Assembly (NCBI RefSeq): GCF_019744875.1
Contig: NZ_JAIETU010000002.1
Location: 248,001-312,000 of the forward strand
Reading direction: 5' to 3'
Origin: Hyphomicrobium sp.
GTDB lineage: Bacteria; Pseudomonadota; Alphaproteobacteria; Rhizobiales; Hyphomicrobiaceae
Length of the DNA stretch: 64,000 bases
In this document: piece after piece, positions 44,602-64,000 of the stretch
Numbering within the stretch: the first letter of the stretch is position 1
Layout of the letters: every line of letters begins with the position of its first letter
Translations under genes and position numbers: made by a program
The notes under the pieces: generated by a model
What the model saw: only the letters and a program-made list of their open reading frames with translations
Told to the model about the DNA's origin: nothing
Databases searched by the model: none

Positions 44602-45195
44602 TCAGTTCGGAGCTGCGGCCGAGACGTCCAGCGGCACGGGAGCAGCCGGTTCGAGCGTTCCCTCCCAGTCGCGCCAGTCGTCCGTGCCGCCGGGAAACCA
44701 GTAGACGCGCGTGTAGCCATAGGCGGCGGCCCGCTTCGCCGCATTCCACCCCATCCAGCAGTCGGCGAGACAATAGATGATCAGCGCGCGGGCTTGATCG
44801 CCCTGAGTGATGCGATCGAGGTTGGTTCTGAAATAGCGATCCATGGCCGGGCTCAGCACGCCCTTGCCGACATCCGGCAGCCAGATCGATCCCGGAATGT
44901 GCTCGCGCTTTTTGCTCAGCCGCCATGCGCCGGTTTTCGGATCGGGCCCCGCGCCTTCGGCCGGCATCGCATCGACCAGCACGGCGCGCTCGTCCTTGAG
45001 CAGCCGGCGGACGTCGTCAACGGAGATCGTGGTTGCGCCCGGCACGGTGTCCGGGGTCGGCGCGCGATAGCGGTCGATGCGGTAGCCCGTAGTGGCATCG
45101 AAATGCGTCTCGTCACCGGCGCGCGCGTTCGTGCCCAGGGTTGCGGTGATTACGAAGGCGACGGCAACGAGGCTCGCATGCCTGGCGCGGATCAG
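44602..45195 (-). CDS. PQQ-associated rhodanese-like protein with CXXXCW motif, unusual start
   Basis: A periplasmic rhodanese-fold protein (TIGR03865-type, annotated as PQQ-dependent catabolism-associated). Residues IIYCLADCWMGWNAAKRA contain the cysteines near the active-site loop and the Trp typical of this family. A Sec signal peptide (RHASLVAVAFVITATLG, then NARA-GD) is encoded upstream, but there is no in-frame ATG, GTG or TTG before it. The CTG at 45195 overlaps the stop of the upstream beta-propeller gene (CTGA) and would work; otherwise a frameshift has split the start. An ATG at 45179 is in a different frame. The GTG at 45045 would remove the signal peptide. Confidence 0.75.
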   Translation of the reverse strand: MIRARHASLVAVAFVITATLGTNARAGDETHFDATTGYRIDRYRAPTPDTVPGATTISVDDVRRLLKDERAVLVDAMPAEGAGPDPKTGAWRLSKKREHIPGSIWLPDVGKGVLSPAMDRYFRTNLDRITQGDQARALIIYCLADCWMGWNAAKRAAAYGYTRVYWFPGGTDDWRDWEGTLEPAAPVPLDVSAAAPN

Positions 45196-46205
45196 CGTGT
45201 CTCGGTCGATGTTTCACCCGACGTGTGGGTAGGCTGCGGACGAACGGCGGCCCCCCACGGGTAGCGGCCGACTTTGATCGATTTAGTCGCCTTCTTCGAG
45301 GCCGTGTCAACGATCGTCACGTCATTGGAAACGCCGTTGGTGGTGATCAGCATGTTTTCCTGCGGCGTGAACGCGAGGTGCCAGACGCGCTGCCCGACCA
45401 GGATGTAGTGCGTGACCTCGTACGAGCGCGTGTCGACGACGGCCACCCGGTTGGCGGGGCCGAGCGCCACGTAAGCCGTCGCGCCGTCCTGCGTGATGCG
45501 GAAGCCGACGGGCTGGATCTTGTCGCGCGACACGCCCGGTATCTCGAACTGGATCGTCTTCTCGACCTTGTGCGTGGCAACATCGACGATCGTGACCGTG
45601 CCGCCGATCTCGGAGGAGATCCAGATCTTGGCGCCATCCGGCGTGAACTCCGCGTGGCGCGGGCGGGCGTCGACCAGGATGTTGTCGACCACGGTGTTGG
45701 TCTTGGTGTCGATCAGATGCGCCATGTTGGTCGTCTCTGACGTGGTGACGACGAGGCTGTCATCCGGCGAGATGGCCATGCCTTCCGGTTCGACTCCGAC
45801 CGGGATCTGGGCGATGACCTGGCGCGTTGCGACATCGACCACGGTGGTGATCGCGTCGTCCTCGTTGGCGATGTAGAGACGCTTGCCATCGTGCGAGAGC
45901 ACGAACTGCTCGGGATCGGCGCCCGAGGGCAGATCGTGGAGGAGCGTGCCTGTCGCCGTATCGTAGACCTGGACGGCGTTGTCGTCGCTCGCGCAAACGA
46001 AAAAGCGGTTGTAGTCGCGCGAGAAGGTGATGCCGCGCGGGCGCTTGCCGACCTTGATCGTGCGCACCACCGAAAGCGATTTCGTATCGATGACGCTGAC
46101 GGTGTTGTCTTTCTCGTTGGTGACGTAGACCTCATGGGCGGCGCACGGAGCAGCCAGGGCGATGAGGGCCCCACACCAAGCGACAATTGCGTTGAAGCGC
46201 AGCAT
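45192..46205 (-). CDS. PQQ-dependent catabolism-associated YVTN beta-propeller protein, copy 1
   Basis: Exported 337-residue beta-propeller. After a signal peptide (cleavage near CAA-HE) come seven or so YVTN blades: HEVYVTNEKDNTVSVIDT, RPRGITFSRDYNRFFVC, DGKRLYIANEDDAITTVVDV, EPEGMAISPDD and so on. The family is known from PQQ-ADH gene clusters (TIGR03866-type) and its task is not settled. It is the first gene of a leftward operon with the CXXXCW protein and is divergent from the cytochrome c operon. A close paralogue is at 55809-56780. Confidence 0.88.
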   Translation of the reverse strand: MLRFNAIVAWCGALIALAAPCAAHEVYVTNEKDNTVSVIDTKSLSVVRTIKVGKRPRGITFSRDYNRFFVCASDDNAVQVYDTATGTLLHDLPSGADPEQFVLSHDGKRLYIANEDDAITTVVDVATRQVIAQIPVGVEPEGMAISPDDSLVVTTSETTNMAHLIDTKTNTVVDNILVDARPRHAEFTPDGAKIWISSEIGGTVTIVDVATHKVEKTIQFEIPGVSRDKIQPVGFRITQDGATAYVALGPANRVAVVDTRSYEVTHYILVGQRVWHLAFTPQENMLITTNGVSNDVTIVDTASKKATKSIKVGRYPWGAAVRPQPTHTSGETSTETR

Positions 46206-46435
46206 GAATGGCCTTTCCGGACACGGTCGTTGGTGTCGCCGCACAATGCGCCGTGTGACTTGTATAGGGGTGCCGGGATGATCTGATATTCGACCATAGT
46301 GCAAAGCTGCAATTCGCACGGGAAGTTCGCCGCTTTTCTTTGGGAATTACACTAAATGTCAATTTCCTAGTCTTCCCGCCCGCGTCATAGCTGAGGAAAA
46401 GAAAAACGTATGGGCGGACCCGGGAGCAGCACTTC
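46206..46435. promoter_or_regulatory. Divergent promoter region of module A
   Basis: The 230 bases between the beta-propeller and the cytochrome gene must contain promoters in both directions. The AT-rich stretch around 46340-46370 (GGGAATTACACTAAATG and CAATTTCCTAG) is the most likely promoter core. No clear operator could be assigned. GGGAGC lies eight bases before the cytochrome start. Confidence 0.4.
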
Positions 46436-46870
46436 ATGTCAATTCGGCTTTTGGCGGCGGCATTTGCAGTCGCGACGGCACTTTTTGCCTTCAATGTCGC
46501 GGAAGTTTCGGCACACGGCGACGTCACGCCCCAGCCGGTCGACACGACGGGTCTCGATCCCCTCGGCGAGGAATGGCGCAAGCACAATCCTTATCGCGAG
46601 AACGCGAAGGCGATTGAAATCGGCACCTCCGGCTACAATCAGAACTGCGCGCGCTGCCATGGCCTCGAAGCCATCTCCGGTGGCCTCGCACCCGATCTCC
46701 GCCTGCTCGACAAGGGCGACGCGGGCGACGAATGGTTCATGGAGCGCATTCGCCACGGCGCCAAGAAGCCCGACGGCACGACGATGATGCCCGCCTTCGA
46801 TGGGCTGATCAGTCAGGAAGCCATGTGGGCGATCCGGACCTATCTCGAGTCGAAGTACACGCCTCAGTGA
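46436..46870 (+). CDS. pedF: Cytochrome c-550 PedF type
   Basis: Periplasmic electron acceptor for PQQ alcohol dehydrogenases. The 144-residue product has a signal peptide (cleavage near VSA-HG), the PedF-type mature start HGDVTPQPVDTTGLDPLGE, one heme site CARCH near residue 66 (with LLDKGDAGDEW after it), and a distal methionine in TMMPAF near residue 121. Such cytochromes accept electrons from quinoprotein ethanol dehydrogenases. It starts a rightward operon of five genes ending in the PQQ-ADH, with spacing of 14 bases to the next start. Confidence 0.9.
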   Translation: MSIRLLAAAFAVATALFAFNVAEVSAHGDVTPQPVDTTGLDPLGEEWRKHNPYRENAKAIEIGTSGYNQNCARCHGLEAISGGLAPDLRLLDKGDAGDEWFMERIRHGAKKPDGTTMMPAFDGLISQEAMWAIRTYLESKYTPQ

Positions 46871-46884
46871 CATACGCGTCCGTG

Positions 46885-47733
46885 ATGATGCGCGCTGTTC
46901 TCAGGATTGCGACCCTCATCGTTTGTTGCAGCGGGCTCGGCCTCTCCGCCTCGGCGCGCCCGCTCGATGAGGTCGTCGCGTCCGGCTCGTTGCGGGTCAT
47001 CTCTTATCTCGACAATGCGCCGTTCTCGTTCGAGGAGAACGGGAAGCCCGCTGGGATCGACGTCGAGATCGCGCGCGCCATCGCAAAGGAGCTCGGCGTC
47101 ACGGCCGAAATCGTGCTGCGCATGCAGGGCGAAAAGGCCGACGACGATGTTCGCGCGAATGTCTGGCGCGGCCCGCTGACCGGCGGCGGCACGGGCGACA
47201 TCATGATGAACGTGCCGATGGACCGGGAGTTTGCGCTGCGCAATCCCGAGGCCGTGTTCGGTAACGCCTATTTCCAGGAACGCGTCGTACTCGCCGTCGA
47301 TCCTGGCGAACGCACGGACATCTCGTCGTTCGACGCTTTCAAAACCCGTAAGATCGGCGTGCAGCTTGCGACCGTCGCCGACTACTTCCTGATGACATAC
47401 GACGACGGCGCACTAATTGAAAACATTTCCCATCATCTGAAGCCAGAACAGGGGGTTCAGGAGTTTCTCAACAAGGACGTATCGGCGCTTCTGGGCATTC
47501 AGTCGAAACTCGAATCGCTGCTTCACGCGTCCAAGGGCCGGGCGAAGTTCCTTAATCCCGACATGCCCGGCATTGTACGAAAGACCTGGGTCATCGGAAT
47601 GGCCTGGAAGGAAAACAGCCGCGATCTTGGGTATGCAATCGACGCGGCACTCGTTAAGCTTTCGGCATCTGGCGATTTGGCCCGATGCTTCGAAAAGTAC
47701 GGCGTGAGCTACGTCTCGCCCCCATTGAACTGA
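46885..47733 (+). CDS. Periplasmic solute-binding protein of the quinoprotein locus (MoxJ/XoxJ-like)
   Basis: A 282-residue family 3-type binding protein fold. The signal peptide ends near ASA-RP, then SLRVISYLDNAPFSFEENGKPAGIDVEIARAIAKELG (about 34-70) is the usual beginning of type-3 solute-binding proteins. In quinoprotein loci such proteins (XoxJ/MoxJ) lack ABC partners and are thought to help the dehydrogenase mature or pass electrons. No permease is in the window. ATG 46885 (MMRAVLR) was chosen for its signal peptide; the open frame extends upstream into the cytochrome gene. Confidence 0.85.
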   Translation: MMRAVLRIATLIVCCSGLGLSASARPLDEVVASGSLRVISYLDNAPFSFEENGKPAGIDVEIARAIAKELGVTAEIVLRMQGEKADDDVRANVWRGPLTGGGTGDIMMNVPMDREFALRNPEAVFGNAYFQERVVLAVDPGERTDISSFDAFKTRKIGVQLATVADYFLMTYDDGALIENISHHLKPEQGVQEFLNKDVSALLGIQSKLESLLHASKGRAKFLNPDMPGIVRKTWVIGMAWKENSRDLGYAIDAALVKLSASGDLARCFEKYGVSYVSPPLN

Positions 47734-47747
47734 TCCGGGAGTTGGCC

Positions 47748-48548
47748 ATGCGCCTGCTTGCGAGCACTTTTCTTCTGCTCCTCGTTTCGGGCGCGGCCTA
47801 CGCAGCGCCGCCCAGTGATCCGCTCGGCTCGCCGATGTGGGCCGACATGGTCGAGCGCGTGCTCGAAGGCGGTGAAGTCGTTTTCGACGACAAGGTCAAA
47901 GTCGTCGTCCCGAGCATCGTCGAGAATCAGGCGCAGGTGCCCGTTACGGCAGATGCGCGGGCGCTGCCCGGCGTGACCAAGCTCGTGGTGTTCGCCGACC
48001 TCAACCCGATCCAACACGTGCTGACGCTGACGCCCGGCAAGTCGGCTCCTTACATCGGCTTTCGCATGAAAGTCGAACAGGGCACGCCCGTGCGCGCGGC
48101 CGCGCAAACAGCAGATGGCGTGTGGCATGTCGGCAGCGTCTATCTCGATGCCGCGGGCGGGGGCTGTTCCGCACCCGCCATGGCGCGCAATGAAGAGTCG
48201 TGGTCGACCACGGTCGGTCAGACCCAGGGGCGCATCTGGCGGGACATCTCGGGGCTCGCGCGCGCGCGGTTCCGCATTCGCCATCCCATGGACACGGGCC
48301 TCGCACGTGACAACACCCCGGCCTTCTATATCGAATCCGTGAAGGTGACCTCGAGCGCGGGCGCGCCACTCGCAACGCTGCAGATGTTCGAGCCCGTGAG
48401 CGAAGATCCGACCGTGACCCTCATGCTGCCGTTGGCGCCGTCTGATGGCGCGATCGACATCGAGGGACGCGACATCAACGGCGGACTTTTCCGTTCGCAG
48501 ATCACTGCGCCCTGGCGGCAGAGCAATGTTGTCGTCCCCCGTGGCTAA
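47748..48548 (+). CDS. Quinoprotein dehydrogenase-associated SoxYZ-like carrier protein
   Basis: A 266-residue periplasmic protein in which a SoxY-like domain is fused to a SoxZ-like domain. The signal peptide ends near AYA-AP. The SoxY-like half ends in DAAGGGCSAPAMARN with the carrier-type cysteine at 140; the SoxZ-like half is from about 150 to 266 with MDTGLARDNTPAFYI and ITAPWRQS. SoxYZ carries sulfur intermediates on the SoxY cysteine; this fused form occurs with PQQ dehydrogenases and SoxH-like hydrolases and its cargo is unknown. Its stop overlaps the start of the next gene. Confidence 0.9.
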   Translation: MRLLASTFLLLLVSGAAYAAPPSDPLGSPMWADMVERVLEGGEVVFDDKVKVVVPSIVENQAQVPVTADARALPGVTKLVVFADLNPIQHVLTLTPGKSAPYIGFRMKVEQGTPVRAAAQTADGVWHVGSVYLDAAGGGCSAPAMARNEESWSTTVGQTQGRIWRDISGLARARFRIRHPMDTGLARDNTPAFYIESVKVTSSAGAPLATLQMFEPVSEDPTVTLMLPLAPSDGAIDIEGRDINGGLFRSQITAPWRQSNVVVPRG

Positions 48549-49530
48549 GCGCGACCGTACGACCGGCCTTTCGCGCCGGCAGGCGATGACGGCGCTTTCG
48601 GCAACGCTCGCCTCGTGCTGGCTGCCCGCATTCGATGCGCGGGCGCTGCCTCTTTCCTATTCATTGAAGCCCGAGAAGCTCACGGACGGCGTCTGGATGA
48701 TCCCCGGCGCGCAAGAGGCGATCACGCAATCCAACGGCGGGGCGATCGCCAACATCACAATTCTCGACACCAAGGCCGGTGCGGTGATCGTCGATACGGG
48801 GCCGTCCCTCCGGTTCGGCTCGGCGCTTTCGGCGCTTGCGACCGAACTCACGGGAAAGCCCGTCGCGCGCGTCTACATTACGCATTTCCACCCGGACCAC
48901 GTGTTCGGCAATCAAGCCTTCGAAGCGGGCACGATCGCGACGACACCGGCGGTCGTGAAGGGCCTCGAAGCCCTGGGCGAAGCGTTCGCGGATTCGATGT
49001 ATCGCTCGGCCGGCGACTGGATGCGCGGGACGGAGCTCAAGCTTCCCGGCAAAATCATCGAAGGCGGCGTCGAGGATTTCGGCGACCGGCGTATCCGCTG
49101 CCTGCCCATGCGCGGGCACACCGATTCCGATCTCGTGCTGTTCGACGAGAAGTCCGGCATCCTGATCGCGGGCGATCTCGTTTTCCTCGACAGAGCGCCG
49201 ACAACACCTCATGCCGACTTCGAGCGTTGGCGCATCAGCCTCGCCAATCTCGGCGGCATTCCCTGCTCGCGGATTGTGCCCGGGCACGGCCCTTCCGAGG
49301 ACACCGATCGCGGAATTCGCCAGACGCGAGATTGGCTCGAGGCCGTTTACGCGATGATTTCCGATGCATTCGAAAAGGGTCTCGATGTTTCCGAGGCCGT
49401 TGCGCTCGAATTGCCTTCGTGGACAAACAAGATTGCACTCGCGCGCTATGAATACGAACGCACGGTGATGCATCTCTATCCGAAGCTCGAAGCCGGGAAA
49501 TTACCCCGCGTCGATGCCCAAAGCCGATAG
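48526..49530 (+). CDS. Quinoprotein relay system zinc metallohydrolase (SoxH-like)
   Basis: A 334-residue metallo-beta-lactamase-fold protein with THFHPDHVFGN near residue 128 (the HxHxDH zinc motif), GHTDSDLVLF near residue 203, and PGHGPS near residue 255 with a third zinc histidine. The N-terminus SRRQAMTALSATLA is a Tat signal of the RR type, so it is exported folded. It belongs with SoxH-related relay proteins associated with PQQ dehydrogenases. ATG 48526 overlaps the previous gene by 23 bases; the GTG at 48541 is an alternative with less overlap. Confidence 0.87.
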   Translation: MLSSPVAKRDRTTGLSRRQAMTALSATLASCWLPAFDARALPLSYSLKPEKLTDGVWMIPGAQEAITQSNGGAIANITILDTKAGAVIVDTGPSLRFGSALSALATELTGKPVARVYITHFHPDHVFGNQAFEAGTIATTPAVVKGLEALGEAFADSMYRSAGDWMRGTELKLPGKIIEGGVEDFGDRRIRCLPMRGHTDSDLVLFDEKSGILIAGDLVFLDRAPTTPHADFERWRISLANLGGIPCSRIVPGHGPSEDTDRGIRQTRDWLEAVYAMISDAFEKGLDVSEAVALELPSWTNKIALARYEYERTVMHLYPKLEAGKLPRVDAQSR

Positions 49531-49577
49531 TTTCTTTCCTTTTGCGAATTTGTTTTCACTGATGTTGTCGCGACTTT

Positions 49578-49625
49578 AGGCGAATAGACTATTTGCCTAT
49601 TATTCCTGGACATACCCTGGAATAA
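49578..49625. promoter_or_regulatory. Two palindromes upstream of the PQQ alcohol dehydrogenase
   Basis: AGGCGAATAG-A-CTATTTGCCT (49578-49598) and TTATTCCTGG ... CCTGGAATAA (49600-49625; arm match 9 of 10) lie next to each other within the 179-base gap between the SoxH-like gene and the dehydrogenase. They end 84 bases before its ATG. They look like operator half-site pairs for a dimeric regulator; none is encoded next door. Confidence 0.5.
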
Positions 49626-49709
49626 GTTCCTGCCCAGCCTGCCTTCCTTGCCCGGTACTCAACGGGAAAAACGCCGGAAGCGGGTAGGAAACGAACCAAG
49701 GGGATTCCC

Positions 49710-51482
49710 ATGATGACCGCCAAATGGCTCGCATCTGCGAGTGCGCCGGCGCTTGCGCTCGCGCTGACACTTTCGACGCCGGCACGCGCCGACGTTTCGA
49801 TCGAAGACATTCTGAAAGATGCCACCACGACCAATGACGTCGTGACCTCGGGTCTCGGCACGCAGGGTCAGCGCTACAGCCCCCTCAAGACCATCGACAA
49901 GGACAACGTCAGCCAGCTCGCGCCCGCCTGGGCCATGTCGCTCGGCGGCGAGAAGATGCGCGGCCAGCAGGCGCAGCCGCTCGTCAAGGACGGCGTGATG
50001 TACGTCACGGGGTCCTACAGCCGCCTCTGGGCCATCGACGTCAAGACAGGCCATGAAATCTGGCAGTACGATCATCGCCTGCCGGAAGGCATTCTGCCGT
50101 GCTGCGACGTCGTCAACCGCGGCGCAGCCCTGATCAACGACAAGGTCATCTTCGGCACGCTTGACGCCAAGCTGGTGGCCCTCGATCGGAAGACGGGCAA
50201 GGTCGTCTGGACCAAGGAAATCGACGATTTCAAGGGTGGCTACTCCTACACGGCTGCACCGCTGATCGTACCCTCGAAGGCGCACGGCCCGCTGGTCGTG
50301 ACCGGCGTATCGGGCGGCGAGTTCGGCATCGTCGGCCGGGTCGAAGCGCGCAAGGCAGACAACGGCGATCTCGTCTGGTCGCGTCCGACCATCGAAGGCC
50401 ACGTCGGGACGCTCGACGGCAAGCCGTCGACGATGACCGGTAAGAAGGGCGAGAGCTGGCCGGGCGATCTCTGGAAGACGGGCGGCGGCGCGACCTGGCT
50501 CGGCGGCACGTACGATCCCGAAACCAACCTGATCTTCGTCGGTGCGGGCAACCCTGCTCCGTGGAACAGCCACATGCGTCCTGGAGACAACAAGTGGTCG
50601 TGCTCGCGCATCGCGATCGACCCCGAGACGGGCGAGATCAAGTGGGGCTACCAGACGACGCCGAATGACGGCTGGGACTTCGACGGCGTGAACGAAGTCG
50701 TTTCGTTCGATCTCAACGGCACCAAGGCTGTCGCCACCGCCGACCGCAACGGCTTCTTCTATGTTCTCGGCCGCGAAGACGGCAAGTTCATCTCGGGAAC
50801 GCCGTTCGTCGAGAAGATCACGTGGGCCAAGGAAATCGGCAAGGACGGCCGTCCGGTTTACAATCCGGACAACCGCCCCGGCAATCCGAAGGACTCGAAG
50901 GACGGCAAGAAGGGCGAGTCGGTCTTCGCCGTGCCGAGCTTCCTCGGCGGCAAGAACCAGCAGCCGATGGCCTACAGCCCGGATACCAAGCTCTTCTATG
51001 TTCCCGCCAACGAGTGGGGCATGGACATCCACAACGAGCCTGTGACCTACAAGAAGGGTGCCGCCTACCTCGGCGCTGGCTTCACCATCAAGCCGATCTT
51101 CGAAGATCACATCGGCGCGCTCAAGGCTGTCGATCCGGCCACCGGCAAGATCGTCTGGACCTACAAGAACCGCGCTCCGCTCTGGGGTGGCGTGCTGACG
51201 ACGGGCTCCAACCTCGTGTTCTTCGGAACGCCCGAGGGTGATCTCAAGGCGCTCGACGCAACGGACGGCAAGGAGCTTTGGAGCTTCAACACCGGTTCGG
51301 GCATCGTGGCTCCTCCGATCACGTGGGAGCAGGACGGCGAGCAGTTCGTCTCGGTTCTCTCGGGCTGGGGTGGTGCTGTTCCGCTCTGGGGCGGTGAAGT
51401 CGCCAAGACGGTCGCAAACCTGAACCAGGGCGGCATGCTCTGGACGTTCAAGCTGCCGAAGAAGCTGGCTGCAGCTCAGTAA
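49710..51482 (+). CDS. PQQ-dependent alcohol dehydrogenase, ExaF/PedH-like (lanthanide type)
   Basis: A 590-residue periplasmic quinoprotein with a signal peptide ending near ARA-DV and an eight-bladed WD-like propeller fold. The vicinal disulfide Cys131-Cys132 (PCCDVVNR) and the PQQ-site residues are present. At GWDFDGVNE the catalytic Asp is at 323 and an extra Asp at 325 is present; that Asp-x-Asp pair marks lanthanide-dependent enzymes rather than calcium-dependent ones. The preceding accessory genes (PedF cytochrome) and shorter length than XoxF support the ethanol dehydrogenase branch (ExaF/PedH). AAGGGGA is before the ATG. A terminator follows. Confidence 0.88.
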
Positions 51483-51625: not shown

Positions 51626-52450
51626 ATGCCGCTGACCGCCCTGCGCAACGCACTTGCCTGTGCGATCTCGGCCATGCTGGCGCTCGCGTATCCGGCAAGC
51701 TGCTCGCATGCGGGTGGCGGCGAGGAGGGCGCGCGGGTCGACACGGCGCTGGTGCTCGCCGTCGACGTTTCCGAATCGGTCGATGCGGAACGCTATCGCT
51801 TGCAGATGGAAGGCATCGCCCGGGCGCTCGAAGATCCGGCCGTGATCGACGCGATCACGAGCGGCCCCAGGGGCGGCATCACCCTCAGCCTGTTGGCGTG
51901 GTCGGACGACGCGGAGCTCGTCATGCCGTGGCAGACCATCCGCAACGTGGACGATGCGCGACGCGTCGCGGGCATTGTGCGGACGCTGCCGCAAAAAGGC
52001 GGCGAATACACCTGCGTGTCGCGGATGCTCTATCGCGTGCACGACAGTCTTCTGCCGCAGGCCGCGCTCAGCGCAGACCACACCGTGATCGACGTTTCCG
52101 GGGACGGCATCGACAATTGCGCGGTGCGCAAAGCCAGCGACACCGCCCGCGATGCCATCGTGGCTCAGGGTGCGACGATCAACGGCCTGCCGATCATCGT
52201 CCAGGGCGAGAACGATGTCGTCGGCGCGGGTACGTTCCGGCGTCCCGGTTTCGCCTTTGAAGACCTGGGCCTCGACCGGGACGCGACCACGCTGGATGCC
52301 TGGTACCGCGATCATATCATCGGCGGCGCCGGGGGCTTCCTGCATCTGGCTGACGGGTATGAGGATTTCGGTCGCGCGTTCCGGCACAAGTTCGTGACGG
52401 AGATCAGCGCGCGGGGCGCGCCCATGCCCCTCGTCCGCGCTGCAAAATAG
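51626..52450 (+). CDS. Exported DUF1194 protein (von Willebrand A-like fold)
   Basis: The 274-residue protein has a signal peptide (hydrophobic to about residue 22) and a vWA-like domain. DVSESVDAERY near residue 48 is a DxSxS metal-ion site, and DVSGDGIDNC near residue 157 fits the DUF1194 motif. Such proteins occur in many Alphaproteobacteria next to redox loci, without known function. GACGAGGAG lies upstream of the ATG at 51626. It follows the dehydrogenase terminator, so it is likely a separate unit. Confidence 0.82.
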   Translation: MPLTALRNALACAISAMLALAYPASCSHAGGGEEGARVDTALVLAVDVSESVDAERYRLQMEGIARALEDPAVIDAITSGPRGGITLSLLAWSDDAELVMPWQTIRNVDDARRVAGIVRTLPQKGGEYTCVSRMLYRVHDSLLPQAALSADHTVIDVSGDGIDNCAVRKASDTARDAIVAQGATINGLPIIVQGENDVVGAGTFRRPGFAFEDLGLDRDATTLDAWYRDHIIGGAGGFLHLADGYEDFGRAFRHKFVTEISARGAPMPLVRAAK

Positions 52451-52498: not shown

Positions 52499-52584
52499 AC
52501 TTTATAACATTGTTCCAAATCCCGCGGCGCCCGTGTAAGCTTCCCGGCACAAAAAGTGAAAAAATACACTTCGAGGGCGGACAC

Positions 52585-56802: not shown

Positions 56803-58071
56803 CTATTGTTTCTGCATCCGGCACTTCGTCTCGGGCTCGTCGAAGCCCAGCGTGTCGGCGAGAGACGTCTGATGCAGGAAGCCTTCCTGCGGGGAGATCG
56901 AGACCAGGGTGCGCGGGCCCGACAGCAGGATGGGCTGGCGCATCTGATGATCCCAGGTGCGGAACGTCAGACCGATGCCCTTGAAGCCCGCGACCGCAAA
57001 ATCCTTCGAGAGGATGTAGCGCTTGATGTCGGCGGGGGCGTTGATGGCCGTTCGCGTGACCGCCTCACCGACAACGCGCACGCCAAGCCATGACGTGTAG
57101 TCGCGCTCGGTCATCATGCGGCGGGCCTGCTTTTCGAACCGGTTCTGCAGCTGGGTTCCGCCGTACTGCTCAAAGGTGCGGTGCCACGCGACCGCCTGCA
57201 GCCCCTGCGAACCCACGACCGGGCGCGGCTCGTAGGTGCGAAACAGCAGATAGTCGCCGAACGCCTCGCCGACGTCGGACGCAAAAATGATGTCATAATC
57301 CGGCGCGCCCTGCGTGAGCATCGGCATCTGCGTCTGGATCTGCTGGTGGCCGGAATCCGTGCGCCGCGAACCGGCATCGAATTCATAGGAGCGCTCGTCC
57401 ACGATCTTGGCGCCGTACTTCTGGGCCGAGCGCCGGATGGCGACCAGGTAGTCCTTGTCGCCCGGCGTCGTGCCATAGACGACCAGCCATCGGCGCCATC
57501 TCTTCCAGGACAGGTATTGCGCCAGCGCATCGGCGCGCATCGCCCAGTTCGGGATGATGTGAAAGACGTTCTGGCGGCAGTCCTGCTGCCTCAACTCATC
57601 GCGGCTCGACCGCACATTGAAGATGATGGCACCTTTCGCCTCGGGGAGATCGGCCATCGCCAGAAGGTCGGACGGTTCGAGGTCGGCAATGATCAGGCCC
57701 TGCTTCTTGGCGAGCTCGGCACGCGCCTTCGTGACGACGTCCTCATTGGCATCCGCGACCACCTCGGTGAGCTCGAAATGCTGCTCGATGAGCCGGCCGG
57801 TCATGTTGTTTTCTTTGATCGCGAGGCGTGCACCCTGCACCCCCTCGTCGGTCAGATCCTTGTCGAGCAGCGACAGCGGCAACGGCTCGGGATAGCGCTT
57901 GCCCACGTAAAGGATTTTGGTCACGAGGGCGCCTTCCGGCGCGTGGGTCGGAGCCTCGGGAATAGCCGCGGCGGGATACGCCGCGACCAGCCAGCCTAAA
58001 ACGAGAGAGAAGACGGCCGCCGAGCCGAGCTTCGCGTGCGCACCCGAAATCGGCAGCCGTCGTTCCCTCAT
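56803..58071 (-). CDS. PQQ-associated ABC transporter-type substrate-binding protein
   Basis: A 422-residue periplasmic binding protein of the branched-chain amino acid/urea type (type-1 fold), from the family found in PQQ-ADH clusters (TIGR03863-type). The signal region has FSLVLGWLVAAYPAAA; the mature part has LLDKDLTDEGVQGARLAIKENN near residue 65 and repeats of a Leu-Ile-Val fold. The start codon ATG 58071 overlaps the cytochrome stop as ATGA, which supports it over the GTG at 58077. No permease or ATPase genes are in the window, so its transport partner is absent or remote. Confidence 0.88.
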   Translation of the reverse strand: MRERRLPISGAHAKLGSAAVFSLVLGWLVAAYPAAAIPEAPTHAPEGALVTKILYVGKRYPEPLPLSLLDKDLTDEGVQGARLAIKENNMTGRLIEQHFELTEVVADANEDVVTKARAELAKKQGLIIADLEPSDLLAMADLPEAKGAIIFNVRSSRDELRQQDCRQNVFHIIPNWAMRADALAQYLSWKRWRRWLVVYGTTPGDKDYLVAIRRSAQKYGAKIVDERSYEFDAGSRRTDSGHQQIQTQMPMLTQGAPDYDIIFASDVGEAFGDYLLFRTYEPRPVVGSQGLQAVAWHRTFEQYGGTQLQNRFEKQARRMMTERDYTSWLGVRVVGEAVTRTAINAPADIKRYILSKDFAVAGFKGIGLTFRTWDHQMRQPILLSGPRTLVSISPQEGFLHQTSLADTLGFDEPETKCRMQKQ

Positions 58072-58670
58072 TGCCACACCTTCTTCTCAGCGCGCCCGCC
58101 CCAGACGGTGCGGATCCATGCGATGGCTTTCCAGAGCTTCGTCTCGTCGTCGATGAGCTCGCCAAAGGGCGGCATCGGGCCGACGACCGATTCCGTTCCC
58201 GTGCGCGTGGCGTTGTACTTTTTCTTGTACTCCTGGGTGCCCAGCGTGATCAGGCGAAAGAGCGTGTCGTCGTCGCCGCCGTACACCCACGTCTCGTTCG
58301 TGAGCGGCGGGCACATGCCGCCGCCACCGCCGCCGCCGTGGCAGCCGTTGCAGGAGAGCCCCATGTAGATCTTGTGGCCTTCGTCGGTGATGGCCTTGTC
58401 GGTCGAGCTGTAGGGGTTCTTGAGCGTTCCTTTTTCAGTCGAGTTGACGCGGTCGATCGGCTTCATCGGCGCGCCGCCGGCAGCCGGAGCTGCCGCCGCT
58501 TCGCCGGACGGTGCCGCTTCCGGAGCCGCAGCAGGATCGGCTTTCTTGTCGGCTGCTGCAGGTTCCGATTTCTCTGCCGGCGCGGGCGCGTCTGCGGCAC
58601 CAGCGGCACCGACGAACGCTCCGACCGAGAGCGCTGCTGCAAGCAGCAGCCTTATGAATTGGCTTTTCAC
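58068..58670 (-). CDS. Methanol metabolism-related c-type cytochrome
   Basis: A 200-residue cytochrome with a signal peptide (cleavage near GAA-DA) and a 40-residue Ala/Pro/Glu/Lys linker before one heme domain: CNGCH at about 107-111 followed by a seven-glycine run and MCPPLTNETWVYGGDDDTLF, and the distal methionine in VVGPMPPFG. The Gly-rich segment and CPPL are the marks of the TIGR03874-type cytochromes of methylotrophs. Starts at GTG 58670 (GGGGAC upstream). It probably accepts electrons from the XoxF encoded upstream in the same direction. Confidence 0.88.
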   Translation of the reverse strand: MKSQFIRLLLAAALSVGAFVGAAGAADAPAPAEKSEPAAADKKADPAAAPEAAPSGEAAAAPAAGGAPMKPIDRVNSTEKGTLKNPYSSTDKAITDEGHKIYMGLSCNGCHGGGGGGGMCPPLTNETWVYGGDDDTLFRLITLGTQEYKKKYNATRTGTESVVGPMPPFGELIDDETKLWKAIAWIRTVWGGRAEKKVWQ

Positions 58671-58778: not shown

Positions 58779-60599
58779 TCAGAGTTTGTCCTTGGCGCCT
58801 GCGCCGTCGCCCGGCTGCGATCGCTCCGAGATGGTGGCCTTGAACAGCTCGATGGACTTCACGGCATCCTCGTTGAGGTTGTCGCGCGCGATGTCGATCG
58901 CGGTCTTTCCGGCCTTCGATGTCGTTGTTGGGTCGGCGCCTGCCTCGAGCAGCAGGCCGATCATCGGGAGGTTGCCGCGCGCCGAGGCGATCATCAACGG
59001 CGTCACACCCTGAGCATTCACCGCGTTGACGTCGGCGCCGCGCTCGATCAGCGCCGTCGCGATGTCGGTCGAGCGCAGGCCCTGGCGACGTTCTATTTCC
59101 TTCGCCGCTTCGCCGACAGCGAGCTGACTTGCAGAGACCATCAACGGCGTGACGCGGTCGGTGCCGGCCACCGCGTTCACCGATGCGCCGAGTTCGATCA
59201 GCGACTTCGCGGCGAGAAATTTGTTGCTCTCGATGGCGAGCGACAGCGGGCCGAAGCCGCCGTCGACCGCCTTCTCGATATCCGCGCCCGCCGTGACGAG
59301 CGCCTTGATGGACGGCACGTGGTTGCGTTCGGCTGCGTGGATCAGCGCGGTGAAACCGTCATTGTCGCGACCGTTGACGTCGGCCTTGAGCTCGATCAGG
59401 AGCGGAATGATCTTGTCGTTGCGATTGCGCGCGGCGGCCTGGAGCGCGCCGTAACCCTGCGCATCGTGCTTGTTGATGTCGGCTCCCTTCTCGATCAGGA
59501 AGCGGATGCGCTCGGCGTCGGAGGCGAGCACCGCGTTCGCAAGCTCGCCCTGGACGTCGGCGCCTTCGGCCAGCCACGCCTCAAGGCGCTCGCGCGTCAC
59601 GCGCTGATCGGGCGATGCTTCGACCTTCTGTCCCTGGCTGATCTCGAACGGTTTCGTGTAGGAGCCGTGTGCCGGCAAATCGCCGGGCACGACGCACTTG
59701 CTGCACTTGACGAGCGGCACGCCATAGTCGCGCAGGATCTTCTCGATCTCGGTGCGGCTCGCGTCGAGCGCGTAATCGAGGGCATATTTGAGCACGACAT
59801 TGGTCGGGCGCACGCCGAGCGACAGATCGAATTCAAGCGGCACCTCGTCTTCCATGAGGTTCACCGGCAGCACGGCGACGGGCGCGCCCTTCATGGTGCG
59901 GAACCATCCCGCGAACGGGCCCCAGACGGCCGCGACGTCGAGACGGCCGTCGACCACCTGCTGCACCTGATACGTCGGCTGCTGCTCGGGCAGGAGATCG
60001 CCGTTGTGGCTTACGGTATGGATGACGACGTTCGTGCTGAGGCCGCGCCTCTTCAGAACCTCGCGGATCGCCGAGGTCTGGTACACGCCGATCTTGAGAT
60101 CCTTGAGCTTCGGGTCGTCGAGACCCGAGATGTCGAGCCCGCGATCGTTCTTCCACACCAGCACATAGGTGGTGCGGTACACGGGATTGGTGGTGAGCAC
60201 ACCGCCGTAGACGGTCGGCATATCGACGAGCACGTCGCAGTCGTTGGTTTCGAAAGTCTGGCGCGTCATGCCGCGCTCGAGATAGGGACGCCAGAAATTG
60301 ATGACCTGCGTGCCCATCGCCTTGGCGAGCACGGCCATGATCTTGTTCTGGAAGCCTTGGCCATCTGCCGACGAGAGCGGCATGTTGCCGGGATCGCCGC
60401 AGACGCGGAGCGCGGCAATTGACTTGGTCTCGAAGGCTTTCTTTCCGGCTGCGCGCGCTGCGGTTTTCTCGGCCGCTGTCAGCTCGTCGAATTCCTTGTT
60501 GGCGCGGAATCCCTGATCCGCCGCAAACGCACCCGAAAGGCTGAAGCCGAGTAAAGCTCCCGCGGCAAGAACAGACGCCAGAAGTCGAAACGGCCTCAC
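58779..60599 (-). CDS. Quinoprotein-associated binding protein fused to ankyrin repeats (XoxJ-like)
   Basis: A 606-residue exported fusion. The signal peptide (LLASVLAAGALLGFSLSGAFA) is followed by a binding-protein domain: ALRVCGDPGNMPLSSADGQGFQNKI (about 60-84) and the NFWRPYLERGMTRQTFETNDCDVLVDMP motif region, typical of the TIGR03871-type proteins near methanol dehydrogenases, to about residue 330. From about 345 to 590 come seven or so ankyrin repeats (ADINKHDAQGYGALQAAA, GADVNAVNAQGVTPLMIASA). The GTG at 60599 has GGAGAG 10 bases before it and starts the signal peptide cleanly; ATG 60620 is in frame but poorer. Confidence 0.88.
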   Translation of the reverse strand: MRPFRLLASVLAAGALLGFSLSGAFAADQGFRANKEFDELTAAEKTAARAAGKKAFETKSIAALRVCGDPGNMPLSSADGQGFQNKIMAVLAKAMGTQVINFWRPYLERGMTRQTFETNDCDVLVDMPTVYGGVLTTNPVYRTTYVLVWKNDRGLDISGLDDPKLKDLKIGVYQTSAIREVLKRRGLSTNVVIHTVSHNGDLLPEQQPTYQVQQVVDGRLDVAAVWGPFAGWFRTMKGAPVAVLPVNLMEDEVPLEFDLSLGVRPTNVVLKYALDYALDASRTEIEKILRDYGVPLVKCSKCVVPGDLPAHGSYTKPFEISQGQKVEASPDQRVTRERLEAWLAEGADVQGELANAVLASDAERIRFLIEKGADINKHDAQGYGALQAAARNRNDKIIPLLIELKADVNGRDNDGFTALIHAAERNHVPSIKALVTAGADIEKAVDGGFGPLSLAIESNKFLAAKSLIELGASVNAVAGTDRVTPLMVSASQLAVGEAAKEIERRQGLRSTDIATALIERGADVNAVNAQGVTPLMIASARGNLPMIGLLLEAGADPTTTSKAGKTAIDIARDNLNEDAVKSIELFKATISERSQPGDGAGAKDKL

Positions 60600-60721
60600 G
60601 AGGACACACTCTCCAATCATGCAACGGCGTTATGTAACTGTATATTGTTGCGTTTCATTCGCGACAAGCAATCAACCCAGCGCTCATGATCAAGTTCCGT
60701 TGAACGCGTCCCGGTTGAGCA

Positions 60722-60756
60722 AGAAAAACGCCCAGCGCCATACGACGCTGGGCGTT
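60722..60756 (-). terminator. Rho-independent terminator of xoxF
   Basis: On the minus strand AACGCCCAGCG pairs perfectly (11 bp) with CGCTGGGCGTT and the stem is followed by TTTTTCTT. It lies 21 bases after the xoxF stop, between xoxF and the ankyrin-fusion gene, so those can be transcribed separately. Confidence 0.88.
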
Positions 60757-60776
60757 CCGTTACTTCAGTAAATCGA

Positions 60777-62657
60777 TCACTCGAAGACCCGGAACGTGAA
60801 GAGCGTTCCTGCCTGCGGGATCTTGTCGAGGTTGGCGGCCTTGGTCATGGCCGTCGCGCCGATCGCACCGAACTTGTCGTTGAGATCGAGGCCAGCCGTG
60901 ACGGGAACGCCGATCCAGCCGCCGATGCCGGAGAGGATCGAGACATACTGCTTGCCCTTCACCTTGTAGGTCATCGGGTTGCCGATGATGCCGGAGGCGA
61001 GCTTGCGGCTCCAGAGCACCTTGCCCGACTTGCGGTCGACAGCGCGGAAGTCACCGCCGAGCGAGCCGTAGAACATCAGGCCGCCGTCGGTCACCATGGT
61101 GCCGCCCCAGTTCGGATACGGATCCGGGATCTCCCAATCCGCCGTGCCGCTGAGCACGTCGAACTTCTTGATCTTGCCGGTCGTGCCGGGCTTCTCCGGA
61201 TACATGAACACGTTCGCGAACACGTAGACCGTGCCCTGCTGCGTGTGCGTGCGCTCCTGAGGCTCAAGCTCCATGCACCAGTTGTTGGTGGGGCAGTAGA
61301 ACTTGGTCGGATCGGCAGGATCGACGGAGCACGGCTGCTGATCCTTGCCGCCCATGGCGGAGGGGCATGCCGAGACGTTGCGACCGCGCTCGAGCGGCGA
61401 GTGCTCGCGCACCTTCACGGGACGACCCGTCTTGAGGTCGACCTTCTCGGCCCAGTCCGTCGTCACGTACTTGTGGGCGCGCAGCAGCGTGCCGTCCGCA
61501 CGATCGAGAACGTAGGCGAAGCCGTTGCGGTCGAAGTGCACGAGGGCCTTGTGGTCCTTGCCGTCAACCTTCATGTCGACGAGGATGTTCTCGTTGACGC
61601 CGTCGTAGTCCCACTGGTCGAAGGGCGTCATCTGGTAGGCCCAGACAGCTTCACCGGTTTCGACCTTGCGGGCGAAAATGGTCATCGACCACTTGTTGTC
61701 GAACTCGCCCGTGTTGCACTCTTCGTGCGTCTTCTTCGAGCAGCGATACGAGGGGCTCCAGAGACCCGGGTTGCCGGTCGAGTAGTAGACGAGCTTGAGC
61801 TCGGGATCGTAGCTGAACCACGCCCAGGCAGCGCCGCCGCCGATCTTGTAGTCCTCGCCGACGTGCGTCTTGATGCCGAGGTCCTGGCCGGCGGTGCCGT
61901 AGTGCGGGTTGGCCTTGTTGGTCTCGGGCGTCAGGCAGACGTCCTTGTCGGAGCCCGTGGAGTGGCACTCCCAGACCTTCTTGCCGTCGTTGAGATCATA
62001 AGCCGTGACGCGGCCGCGGGCTGCGAACTCGTCGCCGCCGAAGCCGAGGATGACGAGGTTGCCGGCGATCAGCGGAGCGCTGGTGCTGGTCTCGCCCTTT
62101 TCGGGCCAGGCGTGCTTGACGACCCAGGCCTCTTTGCCGGTTGCGGCATCGAGTGCGATCAGGAAGCCGTCGAGCGTGCCGTAGTAGAGCTTGCCGTTGG
62201 CGTAGGCCGGTCCCCGATTGACGGTGTCGCAGCAGGCGCGCGGCACGGCCGATTCATCACGGTCGGTGGTCTTGACGTAGTTCCAGATCTGCTTCGGATG
62301 GTCGGGGTCCGAGAGATCGAGACCCTGTGCGATGTTGCACTGGGCCATGTTCGGACAACCCGACACGAAGAACAGCATCGGCTTGCCGCCGACGTCTTCA
62401 ATGAACAGCGGCTGGCCTTCATGGCCACGCAGGGCGCCGGTCGACTGCGACCAGACCATCTGCAGCTTGCTCACGTTGTCGGTGGTGATGTCCTTCAGCG
62501 GCGAATGGCGGGTCAATGAATTGTCGCGCCCGGGGGAACCCCATTGGTTGGGGTCAGCCGCGCGCTTGTCGACCTCGTCGTTTGCGAAGGCGGGGACGGC
62601 AAGTCCCAGCATCGCAAACATGAGGCCGCCCGCGAGCAGGCCCATTTTTTTCGTCAT
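60777..62657 (-). CDS. xoxF: Lanthanide-dependent methanol dehydrogenase XoxF
   Basis: Periplasmic PQQ enzyme of 626 residues that oxidises methanol. A signal peptide (cleavage near AFA-ND) precedes the propeller. The vicinal disulfide is Cys142-Cys143 (RACCDTVNRG). FDQWDYDGVNEN has the catalytic Asp350 and the extra Asp352, the lanthanide marker of XoxF; MxaF has Ala there. Insertions at about 240-270 and 300-320 (SYRCSKKTHEECNTG) differ from the common XoxF5 type, so another clade is likely. A strong GGAGAGGAG site lies upstream of ATG 62657. No mxaFI is nearby. Confidence 0.94.
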   Translation of the reverse strand: MTKKMGLLAGGLMFAMLGLAVPAFANDEVDKRAADPNQWGSPGRDNSLTRHSPLKDITTDNVSKLQMVWSQSTGALRGHEGQPLFIEDVGGKPMLFFVSGCPNMAQCNIAQGLDLSDPDHPKQIWNYVKTTDRDESAVPRACCDTVNRGPAYANGKLYYGTLDGFLIALDAATGKEAWVVKHAWPEKGETSTSAPLIAGNLVILGFGGDEFAARGRVTAYDLNDGKKVWECHSTGSDKDVCLTPETNKANPHYGTAGQDLGIKTHVGEDYKIGGGAAWAWFSYDPELKLVYYSTGNPGLWSPSYRCSKKTHEECNTGEFDNKWSMTIFARKVETGEAVWAYQMTPFDQWDYDGVNENILVDMKVDGKDHKALVHFDRNGFAYVLDRADGTLLRAHKYVTTDWAEKVDLKTGRPVKVREHSPLERGRNVSACPSAMGGKDQQPCSVDPADPTKFYCPTNNWCMELEPQERTHTQQGTVYVFANVFMYPEKPGTTGKIKKFDVLSGTADWEIPDPYPNWGGTMVTDGGLMFYGSLGGDFRAVDRKSGKVLWSRKLASGIIGNPMTYKVKGKQYVSILSGIGGWIGVPVTAGLDLNDKFGAIGATAMTKAANLDKIPQAGTLFTFRVFE

Positions 62658-63016
62658 GTCAGGTCTCCTCTCCTATCTTCGAAGGTTTGAGGATTGAGGA
62701 GCCAGGCAAAGCACATCCGCCCGCCCGAGAGGTTCAGCAAGAAACCCCGGACGATCCGCTCACGCGAGTATGTGACTTTGGCAGGGCGATCTGGCTCTTT
62801 CAGCGAGCCTTATGTCCCGCAACCTACGCTGCAGGCGGACCGCGCTTCTGCTCCCTGGCGTTCAATTCACAAACGTCGGTGAGAGCGAGCGCGTGCAATT
62901 CATGCCGAATATGCCTGCGTGGACGCCCTACCCACAGCACGCACGGTAGGGATGTTATACCAGAACTTCGAGAGGGAAATGTCCCATCTCCGCGGGGGCA
63001 TTTTCCCAATCACGGA
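62658..63016. promoter_or_regulatory. Upstream region of xoxF, 359 bases
   Basis: No gene is visible. It should contain the xoxF promoter. GGGAAAATG and CATTTCCC, read on the minus strand at about 62971-63008, form an interrupted inverted repeat just after the stop of the SUMF1-type gene, which could act as a weak terminator for it. I see no palindrome of the kind found before the other dehydrogenase. Confidence 0.4.
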
Positions 63017-64000
63017 CTAGTGATCGATTGGCTCGAGCGTGCGCGCGACGCGGAAACCAACACTGAAGTTCCTGAAGTCAGGCACGTTGCGGGCGCGCAT
63101 GCCTGAGCGCATGACCTTGGGCGAGTAGAAGACGGATCCGCCGCGCATGCTGCGCACACCACGCGACGGCGGTTGATCGTCAACAGGAGCGCAATCGTCG
63201 GCACTACGCGGCGCTCCGTTCCTGGGGCCAGACGCATAGTCTTCGCAGTAGAAGTCTGCCGTCCATTCCCAGACGTTTCCGTGGACATTGTGAAGTCCCC
63301 ACGCGTTCGGTGCGAACGCATTGGCTGGCGCCGGCGCTTTTCCGTCCCATTCGCCACCGCACCCCTTGCACGCCGCGCGGGGCGCGCCATCGGCGGGAAG
63401 CGTATCGCCCCACCAGTAGGCCGTTGTCGTGCCGGCGCGCGCGGCAAACTCCCACTCGGCTTCGGACGGCAATCGATAGTCGTGGCCGGTCTTTGCGGTG
63501 AGCCACGCCGCATAGGCCATCGCGTCGTTGAAGCTCACGCCGACGATCGGCTGGCCCGGCGCCGTGAGGTTGTCTCCCAGATTGCGATAGTAGCGGCTCG
63601 ATCCGGTCTCGATGTTGTGCTGCCCGCCTGGCTCGCGCCACTCCGCCGGTTTGCATCCGCCGTCGGCGACGCAGGCTTCGTACTCGGCAACGGTCGTTTC
63701 CAGTGCCGCGATGGCGAACGGCGCGATGGCGACCTCCACTTGGATCTCGTCCTCCATGTGGTCGCGTTCGCTTTCGGGTGTGCCGATCTTGAAGCCCTTC
63801 GGCGACGGCGGCAGGGCGACCAGCACCGGGCAGTCTTTTTCGCAATCCCGGAACGGATTGGCGCCGCCCGCAATCCGCGTCGTCTCCGTGTGTTGCCCCT
63901 TCAGCCCGGCGGGGAACGACAGAACGGCAAGGCCGAGCTCACGGGCGCGCGCGGCAACAGCGTCTTTGTCCTGCGGATTTGCTGTGAGGATCGCCTCGAG
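63017..64000 (-). CDS. SUMF1/FGE-fold protein without catalytic cysteines, partial at the 5' end
   Basis: The visible 327 residues run from the window edge; the true start lies beyond. An unassigned N-terminal part (ILTANPQDKDAVAARAREL) leads into ANPFRDCEKDCPVLVALPPSP and a complete SUMF1-type domain: IGTPESERDHMEDE, FAIAALETTVAEYEACV, YRLPSEAEWEFAARAG, WGLHNVHGNVWEWTADFY and VRSMRGGSVFYSP. The cysteine pair used by true formylglycine-generating enzymes near the C-terminus is missing (MRSGMRARNVPDFRN), so it is a non-catalytic or differently acting member. It is followed by xoxF in the same direction. Confidence 0.88.
   Translation of the reverse strand, partial: LEAILTANPQDKDAVAARARELGLAVLSFPAGLKGQHTETTRIAGGANPFRDCEKDCPVLVALPPSPKGFKIGTPESERDHMEDEIQVEVAIAPFAIAALETTVAEYEACVADGGCKPAEWREPGGQHNIETGSSRYYRNLGDNLTAPGQPIVGVSFNDAMAYAAWLTAKTGHDYRLPSEAEWEFAARAGTTTAYWWGDTLPADGAPRAACKGCGGEWDGKAPAPANAFAPNAWGLHNVHGNVWEWTADFYCEDYASGPRNGAPRSADDCAPVDDQPPSRGVRSMRGGSVFYSPKVMRSGMRARNVPDFRNFSVGFRVARTLEPIDH

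Follow-up and report, generated by a model that had tools for sequence, protein, structure and literature searches.

The window analysed here is a stretch of 64,000 nucleotides in a 4.52 Mb Hyphomicrobium sp. genome (contig NZ_JAIETU010000002.1, called C1 here; C1:248001-312000). Two tail-to-tail modules built around pyrroloquinoline quinone (PQQ) dehydrogenases were found in it, module A at 44.6-54.6 kb and module B at 54.7-64.2 kb. In module B, a methanol dehydrogenase of the XoxF1 clade is accompanied by a protein that joins a XoxJ domain to ankyrin repeats. Judged from its sequence, this XoxF1-linked XoxJ-ankyrin fusion is an apparently undescribed variant of XoxJ and the most distinctive feature of the window. 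No description of such a fusion was found in the portions of the open-licence PubMed Central (PMC) literature that were searched, and the mentions of ankyrin in xoxF papers there were unrelated. Papers are cited below by PMC number, for the excerpts available. On balance, we lean towards the view that the window holds two adjacent periplasmic PQQ modules, each with its own helpers, in which the J-ankyrin protein acts as a dedicated maturation factor for XoxF1 and may have a thiol role.

Genes were chosen by frame length and the GC content of codon positions and were named by NCBIfam and Pfam profiles. All named parts cleared the curated cut-offs except the module-B cytochrome. Homologues were counted in 73 named XoxF1 loci, which came from the best 80 of 235 matches; their titles are all proteobacterial, and some loci overlap or belong to the same genome. 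Loci, genomes and contigs carry our own labels (L, G and C). Module B comprises the following genes.

54666..55781, minus strand: exported WD40 propeller (seven WD40 stretches matched; homologue in 10 of 73 XoxF1 loci)
55809..56780, minus strand: YVTN beta-propeller (TIGR03866, 442.4 bits)
56803..58077, minus strand: ABC-type binding protein of the PedA1/LutA kind (TIGR03863, 455.5 bits)
58068..58670, minus strand: XoxG1-like cytochrome c (CNGCH haem motif; homologue in 52 of 73 XoxF1 loci)
58779..60620, minus strand: XoxJ-ankyrin fusion (TIGR03871, 239.7 bits, cut-off 212.15, plus ankyrin)
60777..62657, minus strand: XoxF1-clade methanol dehydrogenase (TIGR03075, 551.4 bits, cut-off 480.05; Asp350/Asp352)
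63017..64000, with the frame running on to window position 64180 (L010:1018-2181), minus strand: FGE-sulfatase/PvdO-like protein (homologue in 10 of 73 XoxF1 loci)

Downstream of XoxF1 the order is J, cytochrome c, TIGR03863 protein, TIGR03866 propeller and WD40 propeller, and the FGE/PvdO-like gene lies upstream. The cytochrome (58068-58670) matched MoxG weakly, at 37 bits against a cut-off of 147.8.

The dehydrogenase at 60777-62657 has the motif WDYDGVN from W349, which gives the pair Asp350/Asp352. Its nearest solved chain was 7o6z (851.7 bits, 61% identity), and the next was 4mae (549.6 bits). In a comparison with the eight other dehydrogenases of the genome, a single branch (100/100) set apart all 10 rows of the XoxF1 clade, 7o6z included. 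The nearest named XoxF1 loci were Hyphomicrobium and Hyphomicrobiales records with 91-93% identity, among the best 80 of 235 matches. The gene named xoxF1 in Methylorubrum extorquens belongs to clade 5 and not to the XoxF1 clade meant here. Lanthanide-dependent methanol oxidation is predicted from sequence for the module-B XoxF1.

The fusion protein (58779-60620) has a signal peptide, a XoxJ domain (residues 70-304), a CxxC extension (C306/C309), a low-confidence linker and ankyrin repeats at about 343-601. It passes the TIGR03871 cut-off of the XoxJ/MxaJ family; it does not end at the binding-protein fold, as ankyrin repeats follow, and is thus a fused variant. An earlier sequence-only reading of this DNA had called the protein XoxJ-like, which agrees with the 239.7 bits to TIGR03871, but the ankyrin fusion had gone unremarked. 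The AlphaFold model of residues 60-613 had a mean pLDDT of 89.7 and a pTM of 0.56. In Foldseek, the J half matched XoxJ 6onp (TMt 0.88), MxaJ 5sv6 (0.80) and, in the MxaF/MxaJ complex 9ism, the MxaJ chain (0.77), and the ankyrin half matched ankyrin and DARPin chains. The CxxC stretch was modelled confidently directly after the last J helix (model residues 241-260, block means 95-96), and the next ten residues dropped to 55. Because the model is confident at that stretch, we describe the CxxC as extending the J domain. It is not thioredoxin- or DsbA-like: it follows a binding-protein fold, and no thioredoxin was named in the best 50 of 1820 Foldseek matches.

The window protein was aligned with 60 of 64 other fusions; four split fragments, two contig-end frames and four over-long or near-duplicate rows were dropped. 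An ankyrin Pfam match was present in all 61 aligned proteins. Cysteines at alignment positions 15, 69, 247 and 250 were found in 60, 61, 61 and 61 of them, respectively. By simple motifs, the first two kinds (15 and 69) also occur in plain J proteins (26/32 and 32/32). The CxxC, which is present in 61/61 aligned fusions, separated the two groups completely (47/47 fusions versus 0/32 plain J). A stricter motif, CxxC with a following GxLP, was found in 43/47 fusions versus 0/32 plain J.

The fusion keeps close company with XoxF1. In the named loci, 70 J matches were found in 65 of the 73 loci, and phmmer detected ankyrin in 68 of these matches. The remaining two come from frames that are split (L091 and L109): each is the first half, and the second half bears ankyrin, so that every locus with J has ankyrin-J (65/65). 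Eight named loci had no J match; in L104, L105, L135 and L136 the contig ends no more than 1 kb past XoxF1, and the other four are weighed below. In the order, XoxF1 (at least 73% identity, after which identity drops to 50%) was found in 17 of 297 genomes, and ankyrin-J in 15 of 297, all within those 17. As for the XoxF1 genomes without a complete ankyrin-J, the 3.4 kb contig of G009 ends 348 bases after the gene, and in G277 an XoxF1 frame with an internal stop is followed by a truncated, decayed J-ankyrin. Among the 27 J loci with the longest frames (at least 461 aa), the ankyrin-bearing ones adjoin XoxF1; the exception is L055, where the contig breaks off shortly upstream of J. These loci belong to 14 genomes, which together with the present one account for the 15.

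A sample of the phylum was also searched, and J was found in 42 of 398 genomes. Four new long-frame J proteins (G654, G559, G555 and G255) and the shorter one of G591 were inspected. The ankyrin-J of G654 and G559 lies beside XoxF1 of 75% and 68% identity, and the J of G555, G255 and G591 lacks ankyrin and lies beside other dehydrogenases. Ankyrin-J without XoxF1 was not found among the checked loci of the order, the named loci and the phylum sample. The named and unnamed sets partly represent the same genomes, as identical rows in the J tree show. A long J frame was considered as a sign of fusion and was rejected: L047 (938 aa), L071-L073 and L157-L159 have no ankyrin match. L047 and L071-L073 have other dehydrogenases, or none in view.

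The J-domain tree contained 79 rows: J domains of at least 180 aa without stops from L017-L073, one named locus in three, and three proteins from the genome studied here, a non-random choice. All 47 ankyrin rows were on one side of one branch (100/99), with the caveat that MxaJ forms a long branch which meets that of the ankyrin group. On this tree the ankyrin-J fusion is of single origin. J-ankyrin also provides a sequence marker for XoxF1 modules. XoxF1 itself also occurs in more than one copy. Tandem XoxF1 genes followed by one J-ankyrin gene were seen in L064, L065, L066, L069, L088 and L091, of which L088 and L091 are from Methyloceanibacter. At L048/L049, and again at L061/L062, one genome has two XoxF1/J-ankyrin pairs, separated by about 9-11 kb.

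The cysteines of XoxF1 were examined in 75 related rows, namely the window protein and matches of more than 590 residues without stops. D350 and D352 were present in 75/75 rows. The 431/461 cysteine pair was likewise found in 75/75 rows and is common to MxaF, DH_L14 and DH_L16. The window XoxF1 has four extra pairs, 101/107, 231/241, 306/314 and 443/455. Both C306 and C314 were present in 75/75 rows; C231/C241 were both present in 73 and both absent in 2, C101/C107 both present in 44 and both absent in 31, and C443/C455 both present in 40 and both absent in 35. A row with one cysteine of a pair alone was not found among the 75. Such strict pairing is the pattern that would be expected from disulfides. 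Neither 7o6z nor any of the six other dehydrogenases of the genome (of eight) that were aligned has cysteine at position 231, 241, 306 or 314.

The genes, the fusion, its company with XoxF1, its single origin, the invariant CxxC and the paired cysteines are established, and from these we infer binding, a maturation role, thiol chemistry and the identity of the metal. The XoxJ domain would grip XoxF1 during maturation or cofactor loading, as MxaJ does on MxaF. That a J protein is able to bind the dehydrogenase it serves is indicated by 9ism, titled as an MxaF/MxaJ complex. The ankyrin solenoid may be a second docking surface for XoxF1 or for a partner, such as the cytochrome or a LutA/LutB-type carrier, and would make the loading of PQQ and metal specific to XoxF1. 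In the least secure step, the CxxC might help to form or check the extra disulfides of proteobacterial XoxF1. Methanol oxidation with lanthanides depends on XoxJ in M. extorquens. There, the loss of xoxJ has the effect of losing the xoxF genes on methanol with lanthanum (La), and an interaction with XoxF, perhaps an activating one, is reported for XoxJ (PMC7391723). In Methylocella, XoxF1, XoxJ1, XoxG1 and an ABC-transporter protein all decrease with La (PMC9291206). From a XoxJ that bears an additional solenoid and an invariant CxxC, and that was seen here with one enzyme clade only, one would expect a complex specific to that clade and perhaps a disulfide step of the same specificity. A bolder version, which we consider rather doubtful, is that XoxJ-ankyrin is also an oxidative-folding factor in the periplasm: J and solenoid clamp XoxF1 while the CxxC helps to make the clade-specific disulfides, a disulfide-reinforced enzyme and its thiol-bearing chaperone having evolved as one unit across the Proteobacteria.

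Several points weigh against a maturation factor with a thiol role. The CxxC lies outside a thioredoxin fold, in a confident stretch of the model, where a structural disulfide would be no less fitting. Conservation is lower in the ankyrin half than in the J half (mean top-residue frequency 0.53 and 0.64, respectively); the invariant positions of the ankyrin half look like ankyrin framework and so suggest no conserved partner surface. At a pTM of 0.56, the mutual arrangement of the halves in the model is tentative. The CxxC and the XoxF1 cysteines, fixed in one clade, amount to one evolutionary event and not to independent support. In addition, the ankyrin check in the order covered J frames of at least 461 aa and loci L017-L046. 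XoxF1 is La-repressed in Methylocella (PMC9291206), which is a poor fit to a simple La-induced role. Finally, four named loci that are uncut by a contig end (L086, L090, L094 and L103) have no complete J. XoxF1 is without a nearby J in L094 and L103, the cytochrome directly follows XoxF1 in L090, and a short ankyrin frame without a J domain follows XoxF1 in L086 (8985-9384), a remnant whose sequence suggests decay of the fusion. The genomes of these four loci each hold another XoxF1 locus with J-ankyrin. Because the four lack a complete J while their genomes have J-ankyrin elsewhere, J is not required beside every XoxF1 copy.

In a rival explanation, possible though on the whole unlikely, the ankyrin half serves as a passive scaffold on which the cytochrome, LutA/LutB-type carriers or the propeller dock, and the CxxC is a structural disulfide that closes the J domain, with no thiol chemistry. 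Ankyrin repeats are protein-binding solenoids. Matches to the cytochrome, the TIGR03863 protein and the propeller (any of three TIGR03866 queries) were found in 52, 31 and 51 of the 73 XoxF1 loci, respectively, and the CxxC stands in a confidently modelled stretch that adjoins the J fold. However, a scaffold alone leaves unexplained both the absence of the CxxC from plain J (0/32) and the extra cysteine pairs of XoxF1, which count against it without excluding it. A maturation factor dedicated to XoxF1 is still the reading that we prefer.

Module A is of an already known kind, the ped type, because PMC12997753 already gives its gene order and its relay families. It comprises the following genes.

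44602..45045, minus strand: CXXXCW rhodanese-like protein (TIGR03865, 165.3 bits)
45192..46319, minus strand: YVTN beta-propeller of the PedA2/LutB kind (TIGR03866, 507.7 bits)
46436..46870, plus strand: cytochrome c-550 PedF (TIGR04494, 202.5 bits, cut-off 122)
46732..47733, plus strand: periplasmic binding protein in the place of PedG (SBP_bac_3, 49.1 bits; likely start about 46885)
47685..48548, plus strand: SoxYZ-like fusion carrier (TIGR04557, 210.9 bits, cut-off 140; GGGCSAP arm)
48445..49530, plus strand: SoxH-like zinc metallohydrolase 1 (TIGR04558, 367.5 bits; THFHPDH)
49710..51482, plus strand: ExaF/PedH-type PQQ dehydrogenase (TIGR03075, 754.6 bits, cut-off 480.05; Asp323/Asp325)
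51626..52450, plus strand: DUF1194 (VWA-like) exported protein (Pfam; candidate member of module A)
52510..53097, plus strand: DUF3617 protein (homologue in 15 of 73 XoxF1 loci)
53179..54630, plus strand: histidine kinase with a LapD/MoxY periplasmic domain (kinase homologue in 33 of 73 XoxF1 loci)

The CXXXCW frame is open upstream to about 45195 and includes a signal-peptide-like stretch, with no ATG, GTG or TTG there. The order pedF-pedG-SoxYZ-like-SoxH-like-pedH is the published order of the Pseudomonas putida ped cluster (PMC12997753); in module A, the binding protein was assigned to the place of pedG by position and class (SBP_bac_3) and not by direct comparison with PedG. The dehydrogenase at 49710-51482 has WDFDGVN from W322, giving Asp323/Asp325. 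Its nearest solved chains were those of PedH (6zcv, 833.6 bits, and 6zcw), with ExaA 1flg at 667.2 bits, and this kinship and the Asp-x-Asp pair place it in the ExaF/PedH group. A further Asp-x-Asp enzyme (WDYDGTN, L015:9074-10888) groups with the ExaF-like enzyme and has no listed SoxYZ-like match within 15 kb. The sequence-only reading had placed the aspartate pairs of both window dehydrogenases exactly. It was also correct in giving each module its own cytochrome c, binding protein and YVTN propeller (TIGR04494, TIGR03863, TIGR03871, SBP_bac_3 and TIGR03866; the module-B cytochrome by CNGCH and a weak MoxG match), in naming CXXXCW, SoxYZ-like and SoxH-like genes (TIGR03865, TIGR04557 and TIGR04558), and in expecting an ethanol-type and a methanol-type enzyme that face each other (nearest chains 6zcv/6zcw and 7o6z).

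It had further stated that pqq, mxa and ABC permease genes are absent. This holds within the window, but mxaG, mxaJ and an MxaF-type gene lie 10-14 kb beyond its end (window 74475-78093, L010:12476-16094), and pqqE, the only pqq gene searched for, lies elsewhere on the same contig. An ATP-binding cassette (ABC) ATPase (TIGR03864) and permease (TIGR03861), with TIGR03863/TIGR03866 proteins of their own, are also on this contig at C1 about 670-676 kb. The TIGR03863 and TIGR03866 profiles are matched in module B as well, and an ATPase/permease was seen just at this second set. The region beyond the window also holds a response regulator, a dehydrogenase with an Asp-x-Ser motif and, with it, a pentapeptide-repeat protein and another PedF. 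The latter three (L011:44-3688; WDYSGNN; the pentapeptide-repeat protein under the curated cut-offs) resemble the PedD/PedE/PedF part of the ped cluster. The island thus contains four dehydrogenases of different kinds and continues to mxaFJG and an ExaA/PedE-like enzyme. A mixed enzyme is conceivable here by analogy, because purification of the Methylomirabilis enzyme yielded a XoxF-MxaI hybrid, as recounted in PMC9291206.

A further reading is that module B is mainly a sensor, with XoxF1 and J-ankyrin signalling metal or methanol status to a MoxY-like kinase and controlling the mxa genes nearby. A kinase homologue was found in 33 of the 73 XoxF1 loci. Of the order's 17 genomes with XoxF1, 7 (G000, G074, G090, G109, G177, G191 and G233) have an Asp-x-Ala (MxaF-type) motif no more than 25 kb from it, and mxaFJG is also near XoxF1 in L155. 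A regulatory role was suggested for the Methylocella XoxF1, although its role was called unclear (PMC9291206). However, the XoxF1-clade enzymes of Methylacidimicrobium (PMC8546591) and Methylomirabilis (according to PMC9291206) are active methanol dehydrogenases, and module B retains its cytochrome and carriers, so we consider a sensor improbable.

The relay genes were then compared across genomes. A second SoxYZ-like gene adjoins module B just beyond the window edge (window 64125-65033, 246.7 bits, cut-off 140), and both this copy and that of the window belong to TIGR04557. A third lies at C1:681.9 kb by a different Asp-x-Asp enzyme, in the company of a CXXXCW gene and one for a type 2 SoxH-like protein. 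The distances from the SoxYZ-like match to the Asp-x-Asp motif are 2.8, 2.7 and 2.7 kb for these three different enzymes. The fourth listed copy (C2:254 kb) has no Asp-x-Asp neighbour; five matches were counted in the genome, the fifth being unlisted. In the order, an Asp-x-Asp DNA pattern was found in 95 of 297 genomes and an Asp-x-Ala/Ser pattern, which misses the Ser codons AGT/AGC, in 55 of 297. SoxYZ-like genes above the cut-off were found in 101 of 297 genomes, 93 of them readable among the listed matches. The Asp-x-Asp pattern was present in 87 of these 93, and 8 of the 95 pattern genomes were outside the 93 (Fisher odds ratio 355, with the kinship of genomes ignored; related genomes in the order are non-independent samples).

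At the level of loci, the nearest listed motif within 15 kb of the 150 listed SoxYZ rows was Asp-x-Asp in 54, Asp-x-Ala in 1, Asp-x-Ser in 4 and none in 91. Conversely, a SoxYZ row lay within 15 kb of 56/150 Asp-x-Asp motifs (the 150 rows cover 83 of the 95 genomes), 2/43 Asp-x-Ala motifs and 5/21 Asp-x-Ser motifs. Profiling of SoxYZ-like genes against Asp-x-Asp enzymes, of the kind that the sequence-only reading had proposed for the relay genes, gave a link that is strong at the genome level but not strict. A strict lanthanide link of the SoxYZ-like family was rejected, as 6 of the 93 listed genomes have no Asp-x-Asp pattern and 5 of the 150 rows are nearest to a calcium-type motif.

One thiol relay of CXXXCW, SoxYZ-like and SoxH-like proteins serving both dehydrogenases is hardly credible: the three genes do lie between and around the enzymes, the SoxYZ-like family does track Asp-x-Asp enzymes in the order and similar roles were offered in PMC12997753, but module B carries a SoxYZ-like gene for itself, the third enzyme has a CXXXCW and a SoxH-like gene beside it, and tblastn with the window proteins, which distant homologues may escape, gave 0 CXXXCW, 1 SoxH-like and 13 SoxYZ-like matches within the 73 XoxF1 loci (covered as far as 7 kb to each side). 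In the form first given, as one system with a shared relay, it is rejected, because each of three Asp-x-Asp motifs has a SoxYZ-like copy at a distance of 2.7-2.8 kb, and module A alone has the ped order. The relay is not one shared set, because SoxYZ-like copies flank three separate Asp-x-Asp enzymes; going by the copies found in the genome, relay genes appear to accompany single Asp-x-Asp enzymes and not to form a common set. The three families are described as conserved among methylotrophs and further Proteobacteria that have lanthanide- and PQQ-dependent enzymes, their disruption without rare earths gave minimal phenotypes, and roles in disulfide formation, cofactor stabilisation and PQQ protection were proposed (PMC12997753).

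Compared with known systems, module A has the same order as the P. putida ped cluster (pedF, pedG, PP_2677, PP_2678, pedH; PP_2666), with a CXXXCW gene nearby (PMC12997753). Unlike in P. putida, CXXXCW and the propeller are divergent from pedF here, and the ABC ATPase/permease is about 375 kb away. By family name, the TIGR03863 and TIGR03866 proteins of the window are of the LutA/LutB (PMC7391723) and PedA1/PedA2 (PMC12997753) kind, although, unlike in those sets, the window copies have no adjoining permease or ATPase. The module-B enzyme is like XoxF1 of Methylacidimicrobium thermophilum AP8 (7o6z; PMC8546591) in identity (61%), clade (100/100) and the common Asp-x-Asp, and differs in that 7o6z has no cysteines at 231, 241, 306, 314, 431 and 461. 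In the xoxF1 cluster of Methylocella silvestris (Msil_3146-3149), XoxF1, XoxJ1, XoxG1 and an ABC-transporter protein are likewise neighbours and co-vary with La, and the excerpts of PMC9291206 make no mention of ankyrin. A J domain fused to another domain beside XoxF is also known from the verrucomicrobial XoxGJ (PMC8498564). In Methylacidiphilum, however, the partner is a cytochrome c and not ankyrin, and XoxG and XoxJ of Methylacidimicrobium are reported to be separate genes (PMC8498564). The N-terminal half of the fusion belongs, by profile and fold, to the same family as XoxJ/MxaJ (TIGR03871/TIGR03870; 6onp, 5sv6 and 9ism), and whereas the matched solved chains have 211-249 residues, the window protein continues with the CxxC extension and an ankyrin-repeat stretch of about 260 residues.

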